This document shows, in pieces, positions 1-63,348 of a stretch of 64,000 nt of DNA. The notes below the pieces were generated by a model, which was not told where the DNA came from, ran no database searches, and saw only the letters and a program-made list of their open reading frames with translations. The DNA is from Synechococcus lacustris. Lineage in GTDB: Bacteria; Cyanobacteriota; Cyanobacteriia; PCC-6307; Cyanobiaceae. The stretch lies in NCBI GenBank assembly GCA_903943975.1, contig CAJAQB010000004.1:1-64000 (forward strand). The letters are read 5' to 3'. How positions within the stretch are numbered: the stretch's first letter is position 1; every line of letters starts with the position of its first letter. The position numbers and the translations under genes are program-made.

Positions 1-302
1 TCGCCGGTGAATACGGCGTAGGTCACGTAGCGGAGGATGATTTCCATGTCGCGCAGGCAAGCAGCCATGCGGCGATGGGTGTAGGCATTGCCGCCGGGGG
101 CGATCAGAGCAGACTGCTGAGCGAAGAGTTCGCGGGCAGCGTTGGTGACGATTTTGGAGGCGTTGGAGGTGATGCGGTTGACGGCATCCATCCGCTTGTT
201 GCTGTTGGCAACAACCGACGACAGGGCGTCGATTTGACCAGCGTTGATGAATTCGCCGCGGGCATCAGCCTGGGCAACGACCTTGGTGAAGGCGTCGAAC
301 AT
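1..302 (-). CDS. cpcB: Phycocyanin beta subunit (CpcB), 3' part cut by window edge
   Basis: This is the N-terminal 100 residues of the phycocyanin beta chain, the bilin-carrying subunit of phycobilisome rods. The start MFDAFTKVV, the segment [15 protein letters not shown] and the block ending in the chromophore-site context [18 protein letters not shown] are classic CpcB; the cysteine of MAACLRD matches the conserved Cys-82 bilin site. The reading frame runs off the left edge, so the second bilin site and the expected downstream cpcA are not visible. A CpcL-type linker and a CpcT lyase lie about 0.7 and 1.6 kb away on the same strand, consistent with a phycobilisome locus. Identification is secure; the absence of phycoerythrin genes here says nothing about the rest of the genome. 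Confidence 0.96.
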
Positions 303-578: not shown

Positions 579-1001
579 ATGAGCAACCCCAACCCGCTGC
601 AACGGCTTCTGGGCCAATTGCATGCCCTCTCTGAGGTGAATGAAACCCTCACGGTGCGCTTGCTCGATCTGGAGGAAAGAATGCAGCGGATGGATGCTCA
701 ACTGCGCGGCCAGCAGGCGGCGTTGGCAGAGGGGGACAAGGTGCTGCTGGCGGCGGCGGACGCCCGCATCGATCGCATTCAGGAGTTGCTTGAGCCGGAA
801 TCGGCAGCCGCCTCCCCCCTGGCAACCCCTTTTCTGGCCAGGTCTCAACCCCAGCACCAGCCCCAGGTCCAGGCGGTTCAAAAAGAAATCGAGCCCGCCA
901 GCCTGTTTGCCGACGAGCCCGAACAGCTCTTTATGGATGACCAACTGGAGGAGCCCCTAGAGGAGCAGTTGGCAGAGGAAGACGAATTACTGGCCGCCTG
1001 A
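579..1001 (+). CDS. Hypothetical acidic coiled-coil protein
   Basis: A 140-residue protein that I do not recognise. Residues about 5-65 are rich in Leu, Glu, Arg and Gln in a heptad-like pattern (VNETLTVRLLDLEERMQRMD), suggesting a helical coiled coil. The middle is Pro/Gln-rich and the C-terminus is strongly acidic with repeated EEPLEEQLAEED. There is no signal peptide or membrane segment. I chose the ATG at 579; a TTG four codons upstream is possible. It lies alone on the plus strand between cpcB and the CpcL-like gene, so a phycobilisome-related role is possible but unsupported beyond position. Confidence 0.6.
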   Translation: MSNPNPLQRLLGQLHALSEVNETLTVRLLDLEERMQRMDAQLRGQQAALAEGDKVLLAAADARIDRIQELLEPESAAASPLATPFLARSQPQHQPQVQAVQKEIEPASLFADEPEQLFMDDQLEEPLEEQLAEEDELLAA

Positions 1002-1033: not shown

Positions 1034-1807
1034 TCACTGGCCGCCGGTGCTCAAGATGGCGGTCACGATGGCGCTGGTGGTGCGCAGCAGCTCCAGGCTC
1101 CCCACCACAATCAGGCCCAGCCAGATCTTGCGGATGTTTTCCGGGGGTAGGCCATTGGGCCAATTGATAAAGCTGGGCCGGGCCCCCCAATGCTGGCCGC
1201 CGCCCTGGAAGCCACCGCCCCTGGACGGCGGGAAACTGGCTAGCACCTGGCGGTAATAGTGCTCGTAACGGGGCAGGGTGATGTTGGTGGGCAGGGTGCC
1301 CACACTGCGGCCGGGCAATACCCGTTGGCGTTGCTGGGGTACTGAATCTTCCCCGAAATTGGTCTGATACTCCTCGGAACTAAGCAGTTCGTCGACCATG
1401 GCGCCCACGCCGCGTTCACCAATCACGATCGACCAGGCAATCGCCTCGGCCTCCCCATGGATCTGCCTGCCCAGCAGGCGTTCCACCAGGTGGCGGGCCA
1501 CCTGTTTATTGCCGTTGTAGCTGTAAACCCCATCCAGGAACCTGGGGGAGAGGGCCAGGCCGCGCACGAATTCGCGCACGCTGATCTGGCTACTGCGCAG
1601 CTGGGATTCCAGGATCCTGTTGCGGTCAACCTTGAGGGTGTGGAAGAAGAGCTGGCGGTAGGCGCCCTCAATCAGGGCGTCCTTTTCGGAGTCATCGAGG
1701 GCGGTGGCTCCGCTGGGTAGGTGCGATGTTTCATCGCCGCCGGGGAAGAAGCCCTCCACGCGGGCGTTCTGGGAGACCAGGGAATGGTTGTGCAGACCGA
1801 GGGCCAA
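1034..1807 (-). CDS. cpcL: CpcL-type (membrane-anchored) phycobilisome rod linker
   Basis: A 257-residue phycobilisome linker. The N-terminus MALGLHNHSLVSQNARVEGF aligns with the usual CpcG start although the codon is TTG. Residues about 35-170 form the PBS linker domain (EGAYRQLFFHTLKVDRN, QISVREFVRGLALSP, ERLLGRQIHGEAEAIAW). Unlike ordinary CpcG, it ends in a hydrophobic segment at about 229-257 (IWLGLIVVGSLELL, then TTSAIVTAIL). In known CpcL (CpcG2) proteins such a tail anchors rod-only phycobilisomes in the thylakoid membrane, where they feed photosystem I. I infer the same role here. The residues between the linker domain and the tail are Gly/Pro-rich and flexible. CpcT is the next gene upstream on the same strand. 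Confidence 0.85.
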   Translation of the reverse strand: MALGLHNHSLVSQNARVEGFFPGGDETSHLPSGATALDDSEKDALIEGAYRQLFFHTLKVDRNRILESQLRSSQISVREFVRGLALSPRFLDGVYSYNGNKQVARHLVERLLGRQIHGEAEAIAWSIVIGERGVGAMVDELLSSEEYQTNFGEDSVPQQRQRVLPGRSVGTLPTNITLPRYEHYYRQVLASFPPSRGGGFQGGGQHWGARPSFINWPNGLPPENIRKIWLGLIVVGSLELLRTTSAIVTAILSTGGQ

Positions 1808-1866: not shown

Positions 1867-2475
1867 TCACAATGCTTCATTACTCCAATACTCATGCCAG
1901 CTGGCCGGGATGGCGTCAGCGAAGCTGGCTTTGCGCTGAAATTCAAAGGGGCCGGCTAGGGATCCCCACACCAGCTCATGGCTTTCCGGGTCGTGGCCCC
2001 GGTCAAGGGAGCGCATGCCGTTGCCATTGATCTCGAAACTGCTCACCAGATAGGTGCGCTGGCCGTTGCGTTCCACGATGCAGCGGCAGCCGGGTTCGAT
2101 TGTGCCGGTGTAGCCGTCTCCCGCGGGGGTAACCACATAGGTGCAGCCCTCCAGGGGCTGGAGCTCGTTGGCGCTGAGGGCTGTTAGCCGGCTTGGATCC
2201 GCCGTAACACCCCAGTAATTCTGTTCGTTGGCCACGGCCTTGTTGCGGATGCGCAGTTCGCCTTCCTCCAGCAGCACCTGCAGCACCCGCAGTCGGTAGG
2301 GCTGATCGGGGGCGATCGTGTAGGCCTGCTCCAGCAGCAGTGAGCCCGGCACCAGCTGGGGCAGGGGCCGCACCCGCACTTGGATGTGGGCGTAAATCGG
2401 TGGGTTGTCGAAGGCTTGCTGCTGGTTGCAAAACTCACCGCAGAGCTGGCGGCAGAGGTCGAGGGGGTTGGCCAT
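1867..2475 (-). CDS. cpcT: CpcT/CpeT-family phycobiliprotein lyase
   Basis: This 202-residue protein matches the CpcT/CpeT lyase family, which attaches phycocyanobilin to the second cysteine of phycocyanin or phycoerythrocyanin beta chains. Supporting segments are the N-terminal LDLCRQLCGEFCNQQQAF, the core VRPLPQL...LLLEQAY, the ELQPLEGCTYVV stretch and the C-terminal GSLAGPFEF. It has no signal peptide and should be cytoplasmic. I start it at the ATG giving MANPLDLC; a TTG two codons upstream is less likely. It sits 59 bp upstream of the CpcL-like gene on the same strand, so co-transcription is possible. The binding lipoprotein on the opposite strand starts 25 bp away, so the two share a short divergent promoter region. 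Confidence 0.88.
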   Translation of the reverse strand: MANPLDLCRQLCGEFCNQQQAFDNPPIYAHIQVRVRPLPQLVPGSLLLEQAYTIAPDQPYRLRVLQVLLEEGELRIRNKAVANEQNYWGVTADPSRLTALSANELQPLEGCTYVVTPAGDGYTGTIEPGCRCIVERNGQRTYLVSSFEINGNGMRSLDRGHDPESHELVWGSLAGPFEFQRKASFADAIPASWHEYWSNEAL

Positions 2476-2500
2476 TGGCAAAGGCTACAAAATATGGCGA

Positions 2501-57137: not shown

Positions 57138-58259
57138 TCAGTTGTTGTTGCTGTATTCCAGTGGTAGCCCTTCTAGGGCCCATTCGCGCAGGCCGCCCCG
57201 CAGGTTTGCCACCTGGTGGAGGCCTGCCTGCAGCAGTTGCTGGGTGGCCAGGGCCGAACGGCTGCCGGAATGACAGAGCACCACAATTGGACGATCCCTG
57301 GGGATTTCCGCCAGGCGAGCCGGCAGTTCCGCCAGGGGGATCAGCAGGCTGTCGGGCCCATGGCCATCGGGACCGTGATATTCCTCGCTGCTGCGCACAT
57401 CGAGCAGCAATAACTCTTCCCTATGGGTGTTTACCCAGTGGGGGCGTAGTTCCGGGAGGCCGGCATAGCTTTGTTCCACCGGGGCCCAGCCCGCCAGCAC
57501 TTGTTCCTGGGCCGGCTTGCCACTGCGCATGTTGGCGGGCACCGCAGCGGCGATCCGGTGTGGGTGAGGCAAGTGCAGGTTGTCCATGTAGCCCACGAAA
57601 TCGCGTTCGTTGGCGCTGCCGCCGAGGCGAGCATTGAAGGCTTTTTCCTCTGCCACTGAACTAACGCTGCGGCCGTTGTAGTCGTGGCCTGGATATAGCA
57701 GACAGCTGTCGGGTAACGAGAGGATCTGCTCGGTGATCGAGCGATAGAGGGTATGGGCATTGCCCTGTTGGAAATCGCAGCGGCCACAGCCGCGGATCAG
57801 CAGGGCATCGCCGCTGAAGGCCAGGCTCCGGTCGTCTAAAACAAAGCTGAGGCAGCCATTGGTGTGGCCTGGGGTGGCGCGAACTTCCAGATAACGAGTG
57901 CCGAAATTAACGCGGTCCCCATGCTGCAGGGGCCTGGTCACATTTTCGGCTTTGGCCGCTGCCGCCAGGCCAATGGCGCAACCGCTGGCTTGGTGCATCA
58001 GCCAGCTGCCGGTTATGTGGTCGGCGTGGGCGTGGGTATCGAGGCTGGCCACCAGGTCGATGGCCAGCTCTCGGATTAGGGAGAGGTCGCGGTTGTGTTG
58101 TTCATAGACCGAATCAATCAGTACCCCTTCGCCGGAGGCCACATCGGCCAGCAGGTAGCTGAAGGTGCCGGTTTCGGCGTCAAACAACTGGCGGAAGAGC
58201 AGCTCCCCACCCCCGGCGGCGGCACGCAGGGAAAGCAACGGGGCAGGGGCAAGGGTCAT
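57138..58259 (-). CDS. Persulfide dioxygenase-rhodanese fusion (ETHE1-like)
   Basis: A 373-residue fusion. The N-terminal metallo-beta-lactamase domain has the ETHE1 iron site: DTHAHADH (His76, His78, Asp80, His81), ATPGHTNGC (His132), FSGDALLIRGCGRCDF (Asp151) and LLYPGHDYNG (His192). The C-terminal rhodanese domain has VLCHSGSRSA (Cys329). Such fusions oxidise glutathione persulfide to sulfite and pass sulfur to form thiosulfate. It acts downstream of sulfide:quinone reductase, encoded 83 bases upstream. Confidence 0.94.
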   Translation of the reverse strand: MTLAPAPLLSLRAAAGGGELLFRQLFDAETGTFSYLLADVASGEGVLIDSVYEQHNRDLSLIRELAIDLVASLDTHAHADHITGSWLMHQASGCAIGLAAAAKAENVTRPLQHGDRVNFGTRYLEVRATPGHTNGCLSFVLDDRSLAFSGDALLIRGCGRCDFQQGNAHTLYRSITEQILSLPDSCLLYPGHDYNGRSVSSVAEEKAFNARLGGSANERDFVGYMDNLHLPHPHRIAAAVPANMRSGKPAQEQVLAGWAPVEQSYAGLPELRPHWVNTHREELLLLDVRSSEEYHGPDGHGPDSLLIPLAELPARLAEIPRDRPIVVLCHSGSRSALATQQLLQAGLHQVANLRGGLREWALEGLPLEYSNNN

Positions 58260-58342: not shown

Positions 58343-59674
58343 TTAGCTGCAGCCTTCGCTGGTTTCGGCTTGGGGTTCCAGGTCTTGGGGGTTTGCCCGA
58401 TAGTCGAGGCGCAACCAGTGCACCAGCGGTGCCAGGGGTTTGAGGTAACGGCCCTCATGGGGCAGCCCCTTGAGCATTCGCTGCCAATAGAGCCAGGGGA
58501 GCAGCCTGGTTTTGAGCAGCCACATGCTCCAGCGTTCCTTGGTGGGATCCACCAGAAAGGAGCTCACCGGCTGCTTGCTGTAGTCAAATTCCGCCATCAC
58601 CACCCTGCCGTAGCCGCTGATAATCGGGCAAACGCTGTAGCCGTCGTACTGGGCCAGCAGCGGCTGGCCCCCTAGGAAGGCGAGCACATTGGCCGCTGTT
58701 ACTGGCGCCGCCGCCCGGGCAGAGCCGGCGGTTTTGGCGGTGGGCAGCGACGCCACATCCCCCAGGGCGAAAACATTGGCGTAGCGCCGATGTTGGGTGC
58801 TGAATTTGTCTACATCTACCCAGCCCCCCGCTTCGGCGCTGGCCAGGGGGCTGTTGGCAACCACATCCGGTGCCGTCATTGGCGGCACCACGTGCAACAT
58901 ATCGAAGCCGAATTCTTTGCGGGAGACGTTACCCGCCTGATCACTCACTTCAAATACGGCCAGCTGTTGCTCTGCCAACACCTCGATCAGTTTGTGGCGC
59001 AACAGCAGCTTGATGCCGCGCCGGAGCGCTAGCTGCGCCATCACCCGGCCATAGGCCGGCACCGCAAACATCGTTGAACCAGCGGTGCAAAACAGCACTT
59101 CGGTGTTTACGCCCACGCCGCTTTTGGCCTTGAAGTAATCGTCGGCCATGTACATCACCTTCTGGGGGGCACCACCGCATTTGATTGCTGTTTCTGGCAC
59201 CGTGAAGATCGCGGTACCCCCTTGGAAATTACGAATCGTTTCCCAGCTGTAGCTGGCGTATTGGGGGGAGTAGTTGCTGCAAATGCCATGGCTACCAAGG
59301 GCCTGGGGCAGGCCCTTGATCTGTTCCCAGCGGCAGCGCAGGCCAGTGGCGATTATCAGTACGTCGTAGCTCAGGGTTTCGCCTGTGCTGATCAGCAGCT
59401 GATTTTGAGCGGGCTTGAACTCGGTGGCGGCGGCCTGGATCCATAGGCAGCCCTTGGGGATCAGGCTGGCTTGATCGCGGCGGGTTTGCTCGAGCGAACA
59501 GAGGCCGCCGCCCACCAGGGTCCAGCCCGGCTGGTAGTAGTGATCGGCGCTGGGCTCCAGCAGGGCTAGATCCAGTTGCGGTTGCAGGCGCAGCAACAGG
59601 TGCGCCACCGTTAGGCCTGCTGCACCACCGCCCACGATCAACACCCGGTGGTGCCTGCTGCCGGGTTTGGCCAT
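58343..59674 (-). CDS. sqr: Sulfide:quinone oxidoreductase (type II-like)
   Basis: A 443-residue flavoprotein that oxidises sulfide and reduces the membrane quinone pool. The FAD motif is VLIVGGGAAGLTVAHLL at 11-27, with SYDVLIIATGLRC, NVFALGDVASLPTAKT near the C-terminus, and the two cysteines of type II enzymes: C166 (TAIKCGGAPQK) and C349 (YSVCPIISGYG). The third cysteine of type I enzymes is not obvious. It heads the sulfide operon; the tandem dyads lie 71-104 bases upstream, with psbA beyond. Confidence 0.93.
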   Translation of the reverse strand: MAKPGSRHHRVLIVGGGAAGLTVAHLLLRLQPQLDLALLEPSADHYYQPGWTLVGGGLCSLEQTRRDQASLIPKGCLWIQAAATEFKPAQNQLLISTGETLSYDVLIIATGLRCRWEQIKGLPQALGSHGICSNYSPQYASYSWETIRNFQGGTAIFTVPETAIKCGGAPQKVMYMADDYFKAKSGVGVNTEVLFCTAGSTMFAVPAYGRVMAQLALRRGIKLLLRHKLIEVLAEQQLAVFEVSDQAGNVSRKEFGFDMLHVVPPMTAPDVVANSPLASAEAGGWVDVDKFSTQHRRYANVFALGDVASLPTAKTAGSARAAAPVTAANVLAFLGGQPLLAQYDGYSVCPIISGYGRVVMAEFDYSKQPVSSFLVDPTKERWSMWLLKTRLLPWLYWQRMLKGLPHEGRYLKPLAPLVHWLRLDYRANPQDLEPQAETSEGCS

Positions 59675-59834: not shown

Positions 59835-59853
59835 GGAAGATTCAAAGTCTTCC
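59835..59853 (-). terminator. Hairpin at the psbA 3' end
   Basis: GGAAGA pairs with TCTTCC around seven bases, touching the psbA stop codon. It has no T tract; it may protect the psbA message end or terminate weakly, so read-through to sqr is possible. Confidence 0.45.
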
Positions 59854-60932
59854 TAACCAATCGCCGGTGCACTTAGGGCCACGGGCAGTTGTTGCACGAC
59901 AGCAAGATCCAGGGGGAAGTTGTGGACGTTGCGTTCATGCATGGCTTCGATGCCGAGGCCGCCGCGGTTGAGTATGTCGGCCCAGGTGTTGATCACCCGA
60001 CCCTGGTGGTCTAGCACTGAGTGGTTGAAGTTGAGACCATTGAGGTTGAAGGAGAAACTCACCACCGCCAGGGCGGCAAACCAGATACCTATCACTGGCC
60101 AGGCAGCCAGAAAGAAGTGGAGGCTGCGGCTGTTGTTGAAGCTGGCGTATTGGAAGATCAAGCGGCCAAAGTAGCCATGGGCGGCCACGATGTTGTAGGT
60201 TTCTTCTTCCTGGCCAAACTTATAACCACGGTTTTGAGATTCAGTTTCTGTGGTTTCCCGCACCAGGGAGCTGGTAACAAGGGAACCATGCATTGCTGAG
60301 AATAATGAGCCTCCAAATACACCGGCAACCCCCAGCATGTGGAAGGGGTGCATTAACACGTTGTGTTCTGCTTGTAGCACCAGCATGAAATTAAAGGTGC
60401 CGGAGATGCCCAGGGGCATGGCATCGGAGAAGGAACCTTGGCCGATGGCATAAACAAACAAAACAGCAGTGGCTGCGGCAACAGGGGCGCTGTAGGCCAC
60501 GGCGATCCAGGGGCGCATGCCCAGCCGGTAGCTCAGTTCCCACTCGCGGCCCATCCAGCAGAAGATGCCAATCAGGAAGTGGAAAACGATCAGCTGATAG
60601 GGGCCGCCGTTGTAGAGCCACTCATCAAGGCTGTTGGCTGCCCAAATGGGATAGAAGTGCAGACCGATGGCATTGGAGCTGGGCACCACTGCGGCGGAAA
60701 TGATGTTGTTGCCGTAGAGCAGGCTGCCGGCCACGGGCTCCCGGATGCCGTCGATGTCGACGGGGGGAGCAGCGATGAAGGCGATTATGAAGGCGGTGGT
60801 GGCCACCAGTAAGCAGGGAATCATCAGCACGCCAAACCAGCCCACGTAGAGGCGGTTTTCGGTGCTGGTAATCCAGTCCTTAAAGGCGGTCCAGGGGTTG
60901 CCCCTTGGACGCAGAAGGGAGGTTGCCGTCAT
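59853..60932 (-). CDS. psbA: Photosystem II D1 protein, D1' (microaerobic) form
   Basis: A 359-residue D1 whose numbering matches the standard protein exactly. Function-critical residues are kept: Tyr161, Asp170, Glu189, His190, His198, His215, Ser264, His272, His332, Glu333, His337, Asp342 and Ala344, so it should oxidise water. It differs from standard D1 at the three positions that mark the microaerobic D1' group: Ala80 (usual Gly), Leu158 (usual Phe) and Ala286 (usual Thr). It also has Trp126, Ala144 (usual Cys), Ala162 (usual Pro) and Glu130, the high-light-like residue. The C-terminal extension after Ala344 ([15 protein letters not shown]) is present. It lies directly upstream of sqr. 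I start at MTATSLLRP. Confidence 0.95.
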
Positions 60933-61018
60933 GGCGATCAGAACAGGGGATAACGGAATCAGCAAGCTGACCCTTTTATAACGTTATCGTTGAAAAGGCC
61001 TTATGCGCAATTAGGGTG
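60933..61018 (-). promoter_or_regulatory. psbA (D1') upstream region
   Basis: This 86-base gap between psbA and the DUF3122 gene contains the palindrome ATAACGTTAT, a nearby GATAACG, and AAAAGG/CCTTTT arms around the palindrome. On the minus strand GTTATAAAAG could be a -10 region. It is probably a regulated promoter, but the TGAC dyads of the sqr region are not present here. Confidence 0.45.
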
Positions 61019-61516
61019 ATGAGTAAATCTACTCAAAGTTTCCGCCGCCGCCGGTCGCTGCCGGGGGTGCTGGCTGTTTGGCTGTTGCTAGTGCTCTTGG
61101 TTTTGCCTGGCCCGCTCCAGGCAGCCGTTGGGATCCAGCGTTGGTCGCTCACTGATGAACTGGGCGACCGTTGGCAGATCAGCCTGTTTGAGCAGCCCGA
61201 CCCGGACTTCCAGGCCGGTTGGCGGCTGCGGCTCAATGCTCTGGGGGCAGCTCAGCATCCTGATCAGCAGCGCCCGCTGCTGCTGCAGGAGGCCATGGGA
61301 GGCCAGTGGCAACTCGCTAACCGCAGCGAAGAGCTGGTGCCCTCCGGCAGCGTTGAGATTCCCCTTGGTTCGGCCCAGTTTGAGCTCACTGGCCTAACGC
61401 CCATTCCCAGCGCTGAGATCCCCCTACGGTTGGCCGTCCCTATGGCCACTGGGGCTGACCATGGGGTGATGCTCACTCCGGAACTGGTGGCTGCCCTCCA
61501 CTCAGTGCTGCAGTAG
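61019..61516 (+). CDS. DUF3122 secreted protein
   Basis: A 165-residue protein with a signal peptide (GVLAVWLLLVLLVLPGPLQA). The mature part, AVGIQRWSLTDELGDRWQIS then LFEQPDPDFQAGWRLRL, matches the cyanobacterial DUF3122 family, whose function is unknown. It diverges from psbA. Its end overlaps the ABC ATPase gene by 15 bases. ATG at 61019 is used rather than the GTG one codon before. Confidence 0.78.
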   Translation: MSKSTQSFRRRRSLPGVLAVWLLLVLLVLPGPLQAAVGIQRWSLTDELGDRWQISLFEQPDPDFQAGWRLRLNALGAAQHPDQQRPLLLQEAMGGQWQLANRSEELVPSGSVEIPLGSAQFELTGLTPIPSAEIPLRLAVPMATGADHGVMLTPELVAALHSVLQ

Positions 61517-62191
61517 GCGGCCGTCTTCCATTGCCACGATTCGATCGGCCACATCAAAGATGCGGTTGTCGTGGGTGACCAGCAGGATCGTGCAGCCCTG
61601 CTCCCGGGCAAGGCGCTGCATCAGGCTCACCACATCACGGCCGGAGCGGCTGTCGAGGGAGGCGGTGGGTTCATCGGCCAGCAATAGCGGTGGGTTGCCC
61701 ACCAGGGCCCGAGCCACGGCCACGCGCTGTTTCTGGCCCCCGGAAAGTTGATCCGGAAATGCTTCCAGCTGATCATCCAGGCCCACGCTGTGCAGCATGG
61801 CCCGGGCCCGTTCGTCCATTTCGTCTGCTTCCAGGTCACCGCGCATTTCCAGGGCCATGCGTACGTTTTGCTGGGCCGTGAGACTGCGGTGCAGGTTGTG
61901 GGCCTGGAAGATGTAGCCATGCTCCCGCCGCGCCAAGGTGAGTTGATTGGCTGGGGCGCCGATCAATTCGCGGCCAAGGATTATCAAGCTGCCGCTTTGA
62001 CCCTGGCGCAGACCCCCGATCAAAGTGAGCAGGGTGGTTTTACCGGAGCCAGAGGGTCCGGTGAGCAGCACAATCTCTCCAGCCTGGATCTCTAAATCGA
62101 TGTCGCTCAGCACCTGCTTGCGTAGGGCGCCATCGCCATAGTGGTGCTGTAAGCGTTTGATAAGCACCGCACTAGTGCTGCCGTTGGCCAT
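61502..62191 (-). CDS. devA: DevA-like ABC exporter ATPase
   Basis: A 229-residue ABC ATPase of the MacB/LolD group: Walker A GPSGSGKTT, signature LSGGQKQRVAVARALV, Walker B LLLADEPTASLD and switch VTHDNRIFDVADRI. It starts at MANGSTSAVLI, overlapping the DevC stop by one base. With DevB and DevC it would form a tripartite exporter; in filamentous relatives this exports heterocyst glycolipids, but in a unicellular cyanobacterium the cargo is unknown, perhaps a lipid or protective compound. Confidence 0.9.
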   Translation of the reverse strand: MANGSTSAVLIKRLQHHYGDGALRKQVLSDIDLEIQAGEIVLLTGPSGSGKTTLLTLIGGLRQGQSGSLIILGRELIGAPANQLTLARREHGYIFQAHNLHRSLTAQQNVRMALEMRGDLEADEMDERARAMLHSVGLDDQLEAFPDQLSGGQKQRVAVARALVGNPPLLLADEPTASLDSRSGRDVVSLMQRLAREQGCTILLVTHDNRIFDVADRIVAMEDGRLLQH

Positions 62192-63348
62192 CAGAACAAT
62201 TCCGCCGGATCGGCGGCCTGCAGCCGGCGGGTGGCGATTGCCCCAGAGGCCAGGCACATCACCACGGTGAGCATGAACACAAACAGGGCCCGGGAGCTGG
62301 TCATGAAGATCGGTAGGGCGGTGGCCCTTGAGGCCATTACATATATGCCCAGCGGCAGGATTAGCCCAGGCAGAAAACCAAGACTTGCCAGCACTAGGGC
62401 CTGCTCAAATATCACCAGCAACAGATAGCGATTGCGAAAACCCATCGCCTTAAAGGTGGCGTATTCGGCCAAGTGGGCATTCACATCCGTGGATAGAACC
62501 TGATAAACAATCACCATCCCCACCACAAATGCCATCGCCGTGCCTAAGCCAAAGATCACGCCAATCGGACTGGCCGTACGCCAGTAACCCTCCTCGAAGG
62601 CCACGTAGCCGGCGGCGGTAAGCACCTTTACGTCCTCGGGCAGGTGACGACGTAGGCGTTCGGCCACCAGGTTGTCATCACTGCCAGGCGCCAGACGAAG
62701 CAGCCCAAGGCTGATGCTGCCCGGGTCGCGGCGGGGGAAGAGGCGCAGGAAGCTTTGATCGCTGGCCAACAGGGTGGCATCGGCGCCGAAGGAGGCCCCG
62801 AGTCGAAAGAGGCCGCCGATCGTGAGGGTGCGGCGTTCGGCCTCTGTGGTTACCAGGTCGCCTTTATCTACACGGGCGATTGTTTTGGCGTATTTACCCC
62901 GGGCTCCGCGATCAAATAAAATAGTGTCTGGCAGTTTGAGTTTGTTTGTTTGCGCTACCACCTCCGGCAGGCTCAACACCTGGCCATCGGGATCAAAGCC
63001 AAGCACCTGCACCGTGGCATTAAGCCTGGTTTGGGGATTTTTCCAGGTGAGTGTATTTAGATAGATGCCTTGGGCATCGATTACCCCAGGTACATCGCGG
63101 GCCTGGAGTAAGCGACGGCGGGGAAAGCTGGCCAGATTTTGGAGGTTTAGGGCCCGTGGACTGATCAGCACGATGTCGCCCTTGAGGGCCCGGCTTAGGC
63201 GGGTGTTGCTGTCGTAGAGGGCCCGCTGGAAGCCCAGCTGGGTAAACATCAAAACATCGGCAAAGGCGATGCCAGCCAGGGCCACCAGCAGCCGACCGCG
63301 GTCGTGCTTGAGCTGCAGCCAGCCCAGGGGCGTTCGCCGTTTGCTCAT
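62191..63348 (-). CDS. devC: DevC-like ABC exporter permease
   Basis: A 385-residue permease of the FtsX/MacB fold. An N-terminal helix (VALAGIAFADVLMFTQLGFQ) is followed by a large periplasmic domain and three C-terminal helices (GVIFGLGTAMAFVVGMVIVY, EQALVLASLGFLPGLILPLG, ALFVFMLTVVMCLASGAIAT). KRRTPLGWLQLKHDRGRLLV at the start is typical DevC. It overlaps devB by four bases and devA by one base. Confidence 0.92.
   Translation of the reverse strand: MSKRRTPLGWLQLKHDRGRLLVALAGIAFADVLMFTQLGFQRALYDSNTRLSRALKGDIVLISPRALNLQNLASFPRRRLLQARDVPGVIDAQGIYLNTLTWKNPQTRLNATVQVLGFDPDGQVLSLPEVVAQTNKLKLPDTILFDRGARGKYAKTIARVDKGDLVTTEAERRTLTIGGLFRLGASFGADATLLASDQSFLRLFPRRDPGSISLGLLRLAPGSDDNLVAERLRRHLPEDVKVLTAAGYVAFEEGYWRTASPIGVIFGLGTAMAFVVGMVIVYQVLSTDVNAHLAEYATFKAMGFRNRYLLLVIFEQALVLASLGFLPGLILPLGIYVMASRATALPIFMTSSRALFVFMLTVVMCLASGAIATRRLQAADPAELF

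Follow-up and report, generated by a model that had tools for sequence, protein, structure and literature searches.

Genes at the locus

The window, as we call the whole stretch of DNA analysed here, comprises 64,000 nucleotides from Synechococcus lacustris and forms the beginning of contig C4 in a genome of 2.47 Mb (23 contigs, 95% complete). A phycobilisome linker gene with a hydrophobic C-terminus lies close to its start, and the features relevant to it are as follows.

3..302, minus strand: cpcB (phycocyanin beta), 5' part, cut by the end of contig C4
579..1001, plus strand: conserved hypothetical gene between cpcB and the linker gene, with a similar gene in the flanks of several relatives
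1034..1807, minus strand: putative cpcL-type (cpcGII) phycobilisome rod-membrane linker gene, 257 aa, TTG start
1043..1141, minus strand: C-terminal hydrophobic helix of the linker, predicted membrane anchor, residues 223-255, with E239 and R242 inside it
1328..1696, minus strand: linker domain PF00427 (PBS_linker_poly, E 1.7e-33), residues 38-160, CpcG-like in sequence, with a 13-residue YRQ-LES spacer as in CpcG
1867..2481, minus strand: CpcT/CpeT-family bilin lyase gene (PF06206, E 2.2e-54), adjoining the linker gene on the same strand
58343-59674, minus strand: SQR-like gene (type III SQR model at 209 bits, cut-off 525)

The linker reading frame is open down to a stop codon at 1034-1036, and its TTG start aligns with Met1 of the relatives. 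Within NCBIfam the protein was recognised by CpcG subfamily models only, with scores of 119 to 137 bits where the cut-offs are 420 to 440, so that by this library it would be a relative of CpcG and CpcL outside every named subfamily. A frameshifted or mis-started CpcG was considered and rejected, given the open frame, the aligned start and a tail that is common to members of the family.

Six PF00427 domains are encoded in the genome, distributed over four proteins: ApcE (three domains), a CpcC-like rod linker, a CpcG with a soluble tail, and the tailed linker. The sequence-only reading of this DNA had described a protein that ends in a hydrophobic helix and not in the tail usual for CpcG, and had proposed a search for a separate CpcG. 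Such a gene is indeed present (G000:C8:33271-33846, 252 aa); its product ends in a soluble tail, and it adjoins a CpeS-family lyase gene (PF09367; cpcS-like). Nine phycobilisome-family matches, named by eye, include allophycocyanin-type subunits, phycocyanin and the ApcE domain, and no phycoerythrin was recognised among the nine. The genome further encodes a ferredoxin-NADP reductase with a CpcD domain, an enzyme reported to belong to known CpcL rods (PMC10322944). ApcE, CpcC, this reductase and the separate CpcG were counted in support of the interpretation given below, as parts of the known CpcL rod.

Flanking DNA was fetched for 51 family loci with a tailed linker, one place being counted twice (L013 and L016) and the flank at many loci spanning only ~500 bases; a CpcT-like gene fell within these flanks at 21 of the 51. 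The hypothetical gene at 579..1001 gave no match in Pfam or NCBIfam, and sequences like it occur near the tailed linker at L021, L022, L045, L046, L050, L052, L112 and L117. A second cpcBA pair is located on contig C3, the two cpcB starts being 78% identical in DNA. Diverged cpcB copies are found at 3-302 of the window and at 1495-2139 of L010. Because the contig breaks inside the window's cpcB copy, the accompanying cpcA is unassembled. Genes of a DevA/DevC-type ABC exporter occupy 61502-63348 of the window on the minus strand.

A predicted membrane helix with a charged pair

Relatives of the linker were chosen by hand from long listings (the best loci, 40 family places with long or short matches, and 60 places outside the family), and the set excludes proteins shorter than 210 or longer than 330 aa as well as partial matches and frames that do not close. 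The ratio of 50 tailed to 26 soluble family linkers obtained in this way is a product of the hand-chosen sample and not a frequency.

The best 17-residue Kyte-Doolittle mean of the tail is 1.60 in the linker, compared to 0.61 in the genome's own CpcG. Predicted insertion energy is 0.12 for the linker tail, -3.08 to 0.77 for the 50 family CpcL-type tails, -4.17 to -1.02 for 28 Synechocystis-type CpcLs and 2.53 to 5.51 for the 26 family CpcG tails; the tailed and soluble family sets do not overlap, a separation that is partly by construction as the classes were set by hydrophobicity, and the energies serve comparison only. AlphaFold2 (37 aligned sequences, mean pLDDT 75) predicts the linker fold followed by one C-terminal helix at residues 223-255, with block means of 89-94 over residues 221-250 and 81 over 251-257. 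The top PDB matches by E-value, multi-domain ApcE/CpcN chains with scores summed over repeats, were set aside. Foldseek relates the model to chains of CpcG and CpcL from phycobilisome structures, among which Synechocystis CpcL (8hfq) ranks 11th in the list of matches. The architecture is thus that of CpcL, namely an N-terminal PF00427 domain, a hydrophobic C-terminal helix in place of a soluble core-binding tail, and a coexisting CpcG; the sequence-only reading, which had named a CpcL-type linker with a membrane-type tail, is borne out on this point by the domain, the predicted helix and the tail energy. A chance hydrophobic stretch was rejected, as the tail pattern is retained in relatives merely 39-70% identical overall.

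The linker is among the less hydrophobic members of the tailed set, because a glutamate and an arginine (E239 and R242) sit in the middle of its helix. By pattern count, E-x-x-R lies inside the helix in 35/50 family tails (further along the helix in L062), including 6/6 tails of the linker's own subgroup, and on the tree the trait shows 3 changes over 27 rows. By comparison, a charge within the most hydrophobic 17 residues is found in 1 of the 28 Synechocystis-type CpcL tails. A Glu and an Arg at mid-helix are unusual for a membrane anchor and, together with an insertion energy near zero, constitute a point against reading the tail as an anchor. Taken as a whole, the linker is genuine and looks functional; it is of the CpcL type and nothing out of the ordinary in its family, and its charged helix is odd.

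Descent of the linker domain

After thinning by identity (from 220 rows to 88), a tree of 190 columns with the tail excluded united 27 tailed family linkers (99/96), grouped these with 11 family CpcGs (100/98), and put 24 Synechocystis-type CpcLs in a separate clade (100/95). Tailed linkers appear at three further places in this tree, giving 5 tail-state changes in all. An AU test, with groups named after the tree was seen, rejected a joint clade of family tailed linkers and Synechocystis-type CpcL (p-AU 0.00115, 75 log units worse). The Synechocystis-type clade is anchored by L160, which scores 287.5 bits to Synechocystis CpcL over residues 1-240 and 227.7 to CpcG; for the present linker the scores are 139.9 bits against Synechocystis CpcL and 191.7 against Synechocystis CpcG.

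The spacer between YRQ and LES points the same way. It measures 13 residues in the linker, in 26/26 family CpcGs and in all 34 tailed family linkers that the pattern could measure (among the other 16 of the 50, the F-F-H stretch recurs in those printed), and 15 residues in 25/28 Synechocystis-type CpcLs, the remaining 3 of which print N/H-E-Q-Q. The linker, which falls outside the Synechocystis-type clade, is missing this 15-residue N/H-E-Q-Q spacer. As the spacer in outgroup domains is 14-16 residues where measurable, the 13-residue form is suggested to be derived. Of 11 columns diagnostic for CpcG versus the Synechocystis-type CpcL clade, 7 are CpcG-like in the family tailed linkers, 1 is CpcL-like and 3 agree with neither.

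These results bear on the reading that the linker is related to Synechocystis-type CpcL by straight orthology and that its domain looks CpcG-like through an artefact of slow change or composition. Similarity of the tails (see below) would favour such orthology, and sub-region trees disagree, residues 116-192 taken alone also allowing a grouping with Synechocystis-type CpcL. Set against the AU test, the spacer shared with CpcG and the balance of diagnostic columns, we judge it improbable. For the sequence-only reading, a tree that placed the protein among ordinary CpcGs with a soluble tail would have spoken against a CpcL; the linker region does fall among picocyanobacterial CpcG, while the tail is hydrophobic and CpcL-like, with no soluble tail.

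Also considered was one clean origin for the tailed linkers of the family as a whole. It is backed by the 190-column tree (99/96) and contradicted by an outgroup-rooted domain tree of 126 columns, in which the linker's subgroup (5 of the 27 tailed rows) joins family CpcG (98/90), apart from the other 22. Over residues 97-108, identity of this subgroup is 0.59 to CpcG versus 0.39 to the other tailed linkers, and local CpcG-like stretches of this kind suggest later gene conversion.

Elsewhere in the sample, a soluble and a tailed linker adjoin one another on contig C211 of G264 (L153 and L174, neighbouring places), and their linker regions group at 100/100. Lying outside the main CpcL clade, this pair looks like another cpcG-cpcL domain exchange. 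L173 and L174 both carry a CpcL-type tail of the form W-x-W-Q-x-P-P-Y-P, with linker regions outside the main CpcL clade of the 190-column tree.

Descent of the tail

Aligned by hhalign, the family tails match 16 CpcL tails of the W-x-W-Q-K-P-P kind with E 7e-6 and a score of 29.4, in a comparison that was refined after the tails were seen and in which the better-matching 16 of 28 were picked by motif. In 200 half-wise column shuffles the mean score was 12.7 and the best 26.7, so 0/200 reached 29.4; the reversed control gave 12.1. With the other 12 of the 28 CpcL tails there was no match (E 0.041), with six Nostocales tails hhalign detected no similarity (E 0.29), and with all 28 canonical CpcL tails together E was 0.00057 (probability 29%). 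Against CpcG tails E was 0.31. We regard this as a fair, though not final, case that the family tail derives from a CpcL tail. Combined with the affinities of the domain, it indicates that the linker is most likely a chimera and no straight descendant of Synechocystis-type CpcL.

Distribution in the family and the proposed link to sulfide

Among the matches listed, CpcG/CpcL-like sequences at E <= 1e-30 occur in 117 of 201 family genomes, 107 of which have two or more. These listed matches are of two kinds, one ending near linker residue 194 (CpcG) and the other running to the end (tailed), and the 84 genomes with no match among them include ones with few or no PF00427 domains (G013, G020, G058). 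With matches so common across the family, most of the sampled members that bear phycobilisomes appear to have the tailed linker as a regular component.

The sequence-only reading had connected the linker to sulfide, proposing that extra antenna for photosystem I would help if sulfide donated electrons to the quinone pool. The contig does carry an SQR-like gene, 57 kb from the linker gene; it is flanked by psbA (59853-60965) on one side and by a metallo-beta-lactamase/rhodanese gene (57138-58259) on the other, all on the minus strand. A second SQR-like match occurs in the genome at G000:C19:200323-201534. A special sulfide adaptation, in which the linker would feed photosystem I while SQR supplied the quinone pool with electrons, could also draw on a shared distribution: a gene closely related to the window's SQR-like gene occurs in 61 of the 201 family genomes, and in 60 of these 61 there are one or more CpcG/CpcL-like matches. 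Co-occurrence and distance nevertheless led us to reject the link, and we hold the adaptation to be highly improbable. Of the 107 multi-linker genomes, 56 have an SQR relative and 51 do not; the congeners G001 and G003 possess a tailed linker with no SQR match; and in all 8 genomes for which places on one contig were compared the two genes are far apart (67 kb in one and at least 580 kb in the other 7, counted linearly). The best SQR model also scores well under its cut-off. Given its spread across the family, the tailed linker needs neither sulfide nor low oxygen as an explanation.

Identity with cpcGII

By synteny, the linker gene corresponds to cpcGII of Six et al. 2007 (PMC2246261). Every marine Synechococcus studied in that work is reported to carry cpcGI next to cpcS, with cpcGII located in the rod region, and the present genome likewise has a second cpcG in its rod gene region (cpcB and cpcT nearby) and a CpcG gene beside a CpeS-family gene. 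We found no equation of cpcGII with CpcL in the titles and abstract openings of the literature searched on Synechococcus, Cyanobium and picocyanobacteria, with subscription journals thinly covered.

Mass spectrometry in that paper found CpcGI in the phycobilisomes analysed and did not detect CpcGII, which thus escaped notice in most soluble phycobilisome preparations (PMC2246261). Synechocystis CpcL is reported to go preferentially to the Triton detergent layer in standard preparations (PMC12461855), and by analogy CpcGII may have escaped detection by being membrane-anchored. The same paper refers to an earlier observation of CpcGII in a phycobilisome fraction of WH8102 (PMC2246261), on account of which CpcGII may not be solely membrane-bound. 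That fraction would also suit a second rod-core linker, with a hydrophobic tail that packs on the allophycocyanin core or another phycobilisome part and not in the membrane, as would the grouping of the domain with picocyanobacterial CpcG and the charged pair in most of the related tails. We think this unlikely, seeing that the tails resemble those of CpcL over those of CpcG, that AlphaFold2 shows a free 33-residue helix, and that CpcGII went undetected in the mass spectrometry just cited.

Proposed function and origin

In our assessment the linker is probably a CpcL-like rod-membrane linker with a predicted helix anchor, most likely positioned by photosystem I and chimeric in origin. By homology to Synechocystis CpcL (8hfq), its PF00427 domain would occupy the interior of the phycocyanin hexamer that lies closest to the membrane in a rod. 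The hydrophobic helix, which takes the place of the tail by which CpcG binds the allophycocyanin core, is predicted to insert in the thylakoid membrane, and a core-less phycocyanin rod would thereby be held there; core-bound rods would be made by the genome's ordinary CpcG. That the linker fixes a pigment rod directly to the photosynthetic membrane is, on this model, the most likely function. As to origin, a picocyanobacterial CpcG-type domain and a CpcL-type tail would have been joined once or more by gene conversion or recombination.

Photosystem I is probably the partner, by analogy with CpcL of Synechocystis and Anabaena, both of which are reported to go to it (PMC10322944, PMC11165356). 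The CpcL-type phycocyanin rods of Acaryochloris marina are reported to associate with photosystems I and II alike (PMC9415938). That the anchored rods would chiefly serve photosystem II, NDH-1 or a mixed pool seems to us unlikely in light of the Synechocystis and Anabaena precedents. A bolder proposal would have the picocyanobacterial CpcL rebuilt, with a CpcG-type domain on a CpcL tail and a fixed intramembrane Glu-x-x-Arg gained that could bind chlorophyll or a photosystem I subunit and give the helix a share in the energy path beyond that of an anchor, CpcGII being an overlooked, nearly universal photosystem I antenna of phycobilisome-bearing picocyanobacteria. We put this forward as an unlikely idea.

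If the rod-membrane interpretation is true, most phycobilisome-bearing picocyanobacteria, including by synteny marine Synechococcus, would be equipped with a dedicated phycocyanin antenna, bound to the membrane and missed by the standard preparations of soluble phycobilisomes. There would be a simple reason for CpcGII going undetected in 2007, and direct energy flow from phycocyanin to photosystem I would become testable in important primary producers.

Comparison with known systems

CpcL genes have been reported in 42 of 65 cyanobacteria (PMC9415938), and gain or loss of the CpcL helix by domain reorganisation has been described as possibly frequent (PMC10053587). Conflicting phylogenies are also on record for two cpcGII copies of a Baltic contig (PMC4139726). 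If the interpretation given here is right, the present linker adds to the case that the "CpcL" design arose in several separate lineages.

Like CpcL (CpcG2) of Synechocystis sp. PCC 6803 (8hfq chain n), it combines PF00427 with a single hydrophobic C-terminal helix and occurs with a separate CpcG, and its tail resembles the W-x-W-Q-K-P-P kind. It differs in a linker region that groups with CpcG, in a spacer two residues shorter and in the E-x-x-R of its helix. The genomic settings differ as well, with cpcB and cpcT beside the linker gene and CcaS/CcaR reported beside Synechocystis cpcL (PMC12461855). With CpcL (CpcG3) of Anabaena sp. PCC 7120 and other Nostocales (L074, L188) it shares a linker domain and a hydrophobic tail; the Anabaena protein is reported to be bound to photosystem I in heterocysts (PMC11165356). 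In contrast to these proteins, the linker lies on another branch of the tree and its tail has no detectable similarity to theirs by hhalign.

A parallel in gene order is cpcGII of marine Synechococcus, the second cpcG in the rod region of genomes whose other cpcG stands beside cpcS (PMC2246261). Some relatives (e.g. G007, among the matches listed) have a phycobiliprotein-family gene just upstream, comparable to aplA in that paper. There the cpcGII product is called a rod-core linker, and the word "hydrophobic" was found at 0 places in its text. A picocyanobacterial cpcL is already in print: the gene was reported from homology in Cyanobium sp. NIVA-CYA 375, a phycoerythrin-rich strain unlike the present genome, for which two phycobilisome forms were proposed (PMC13342260, 2026).
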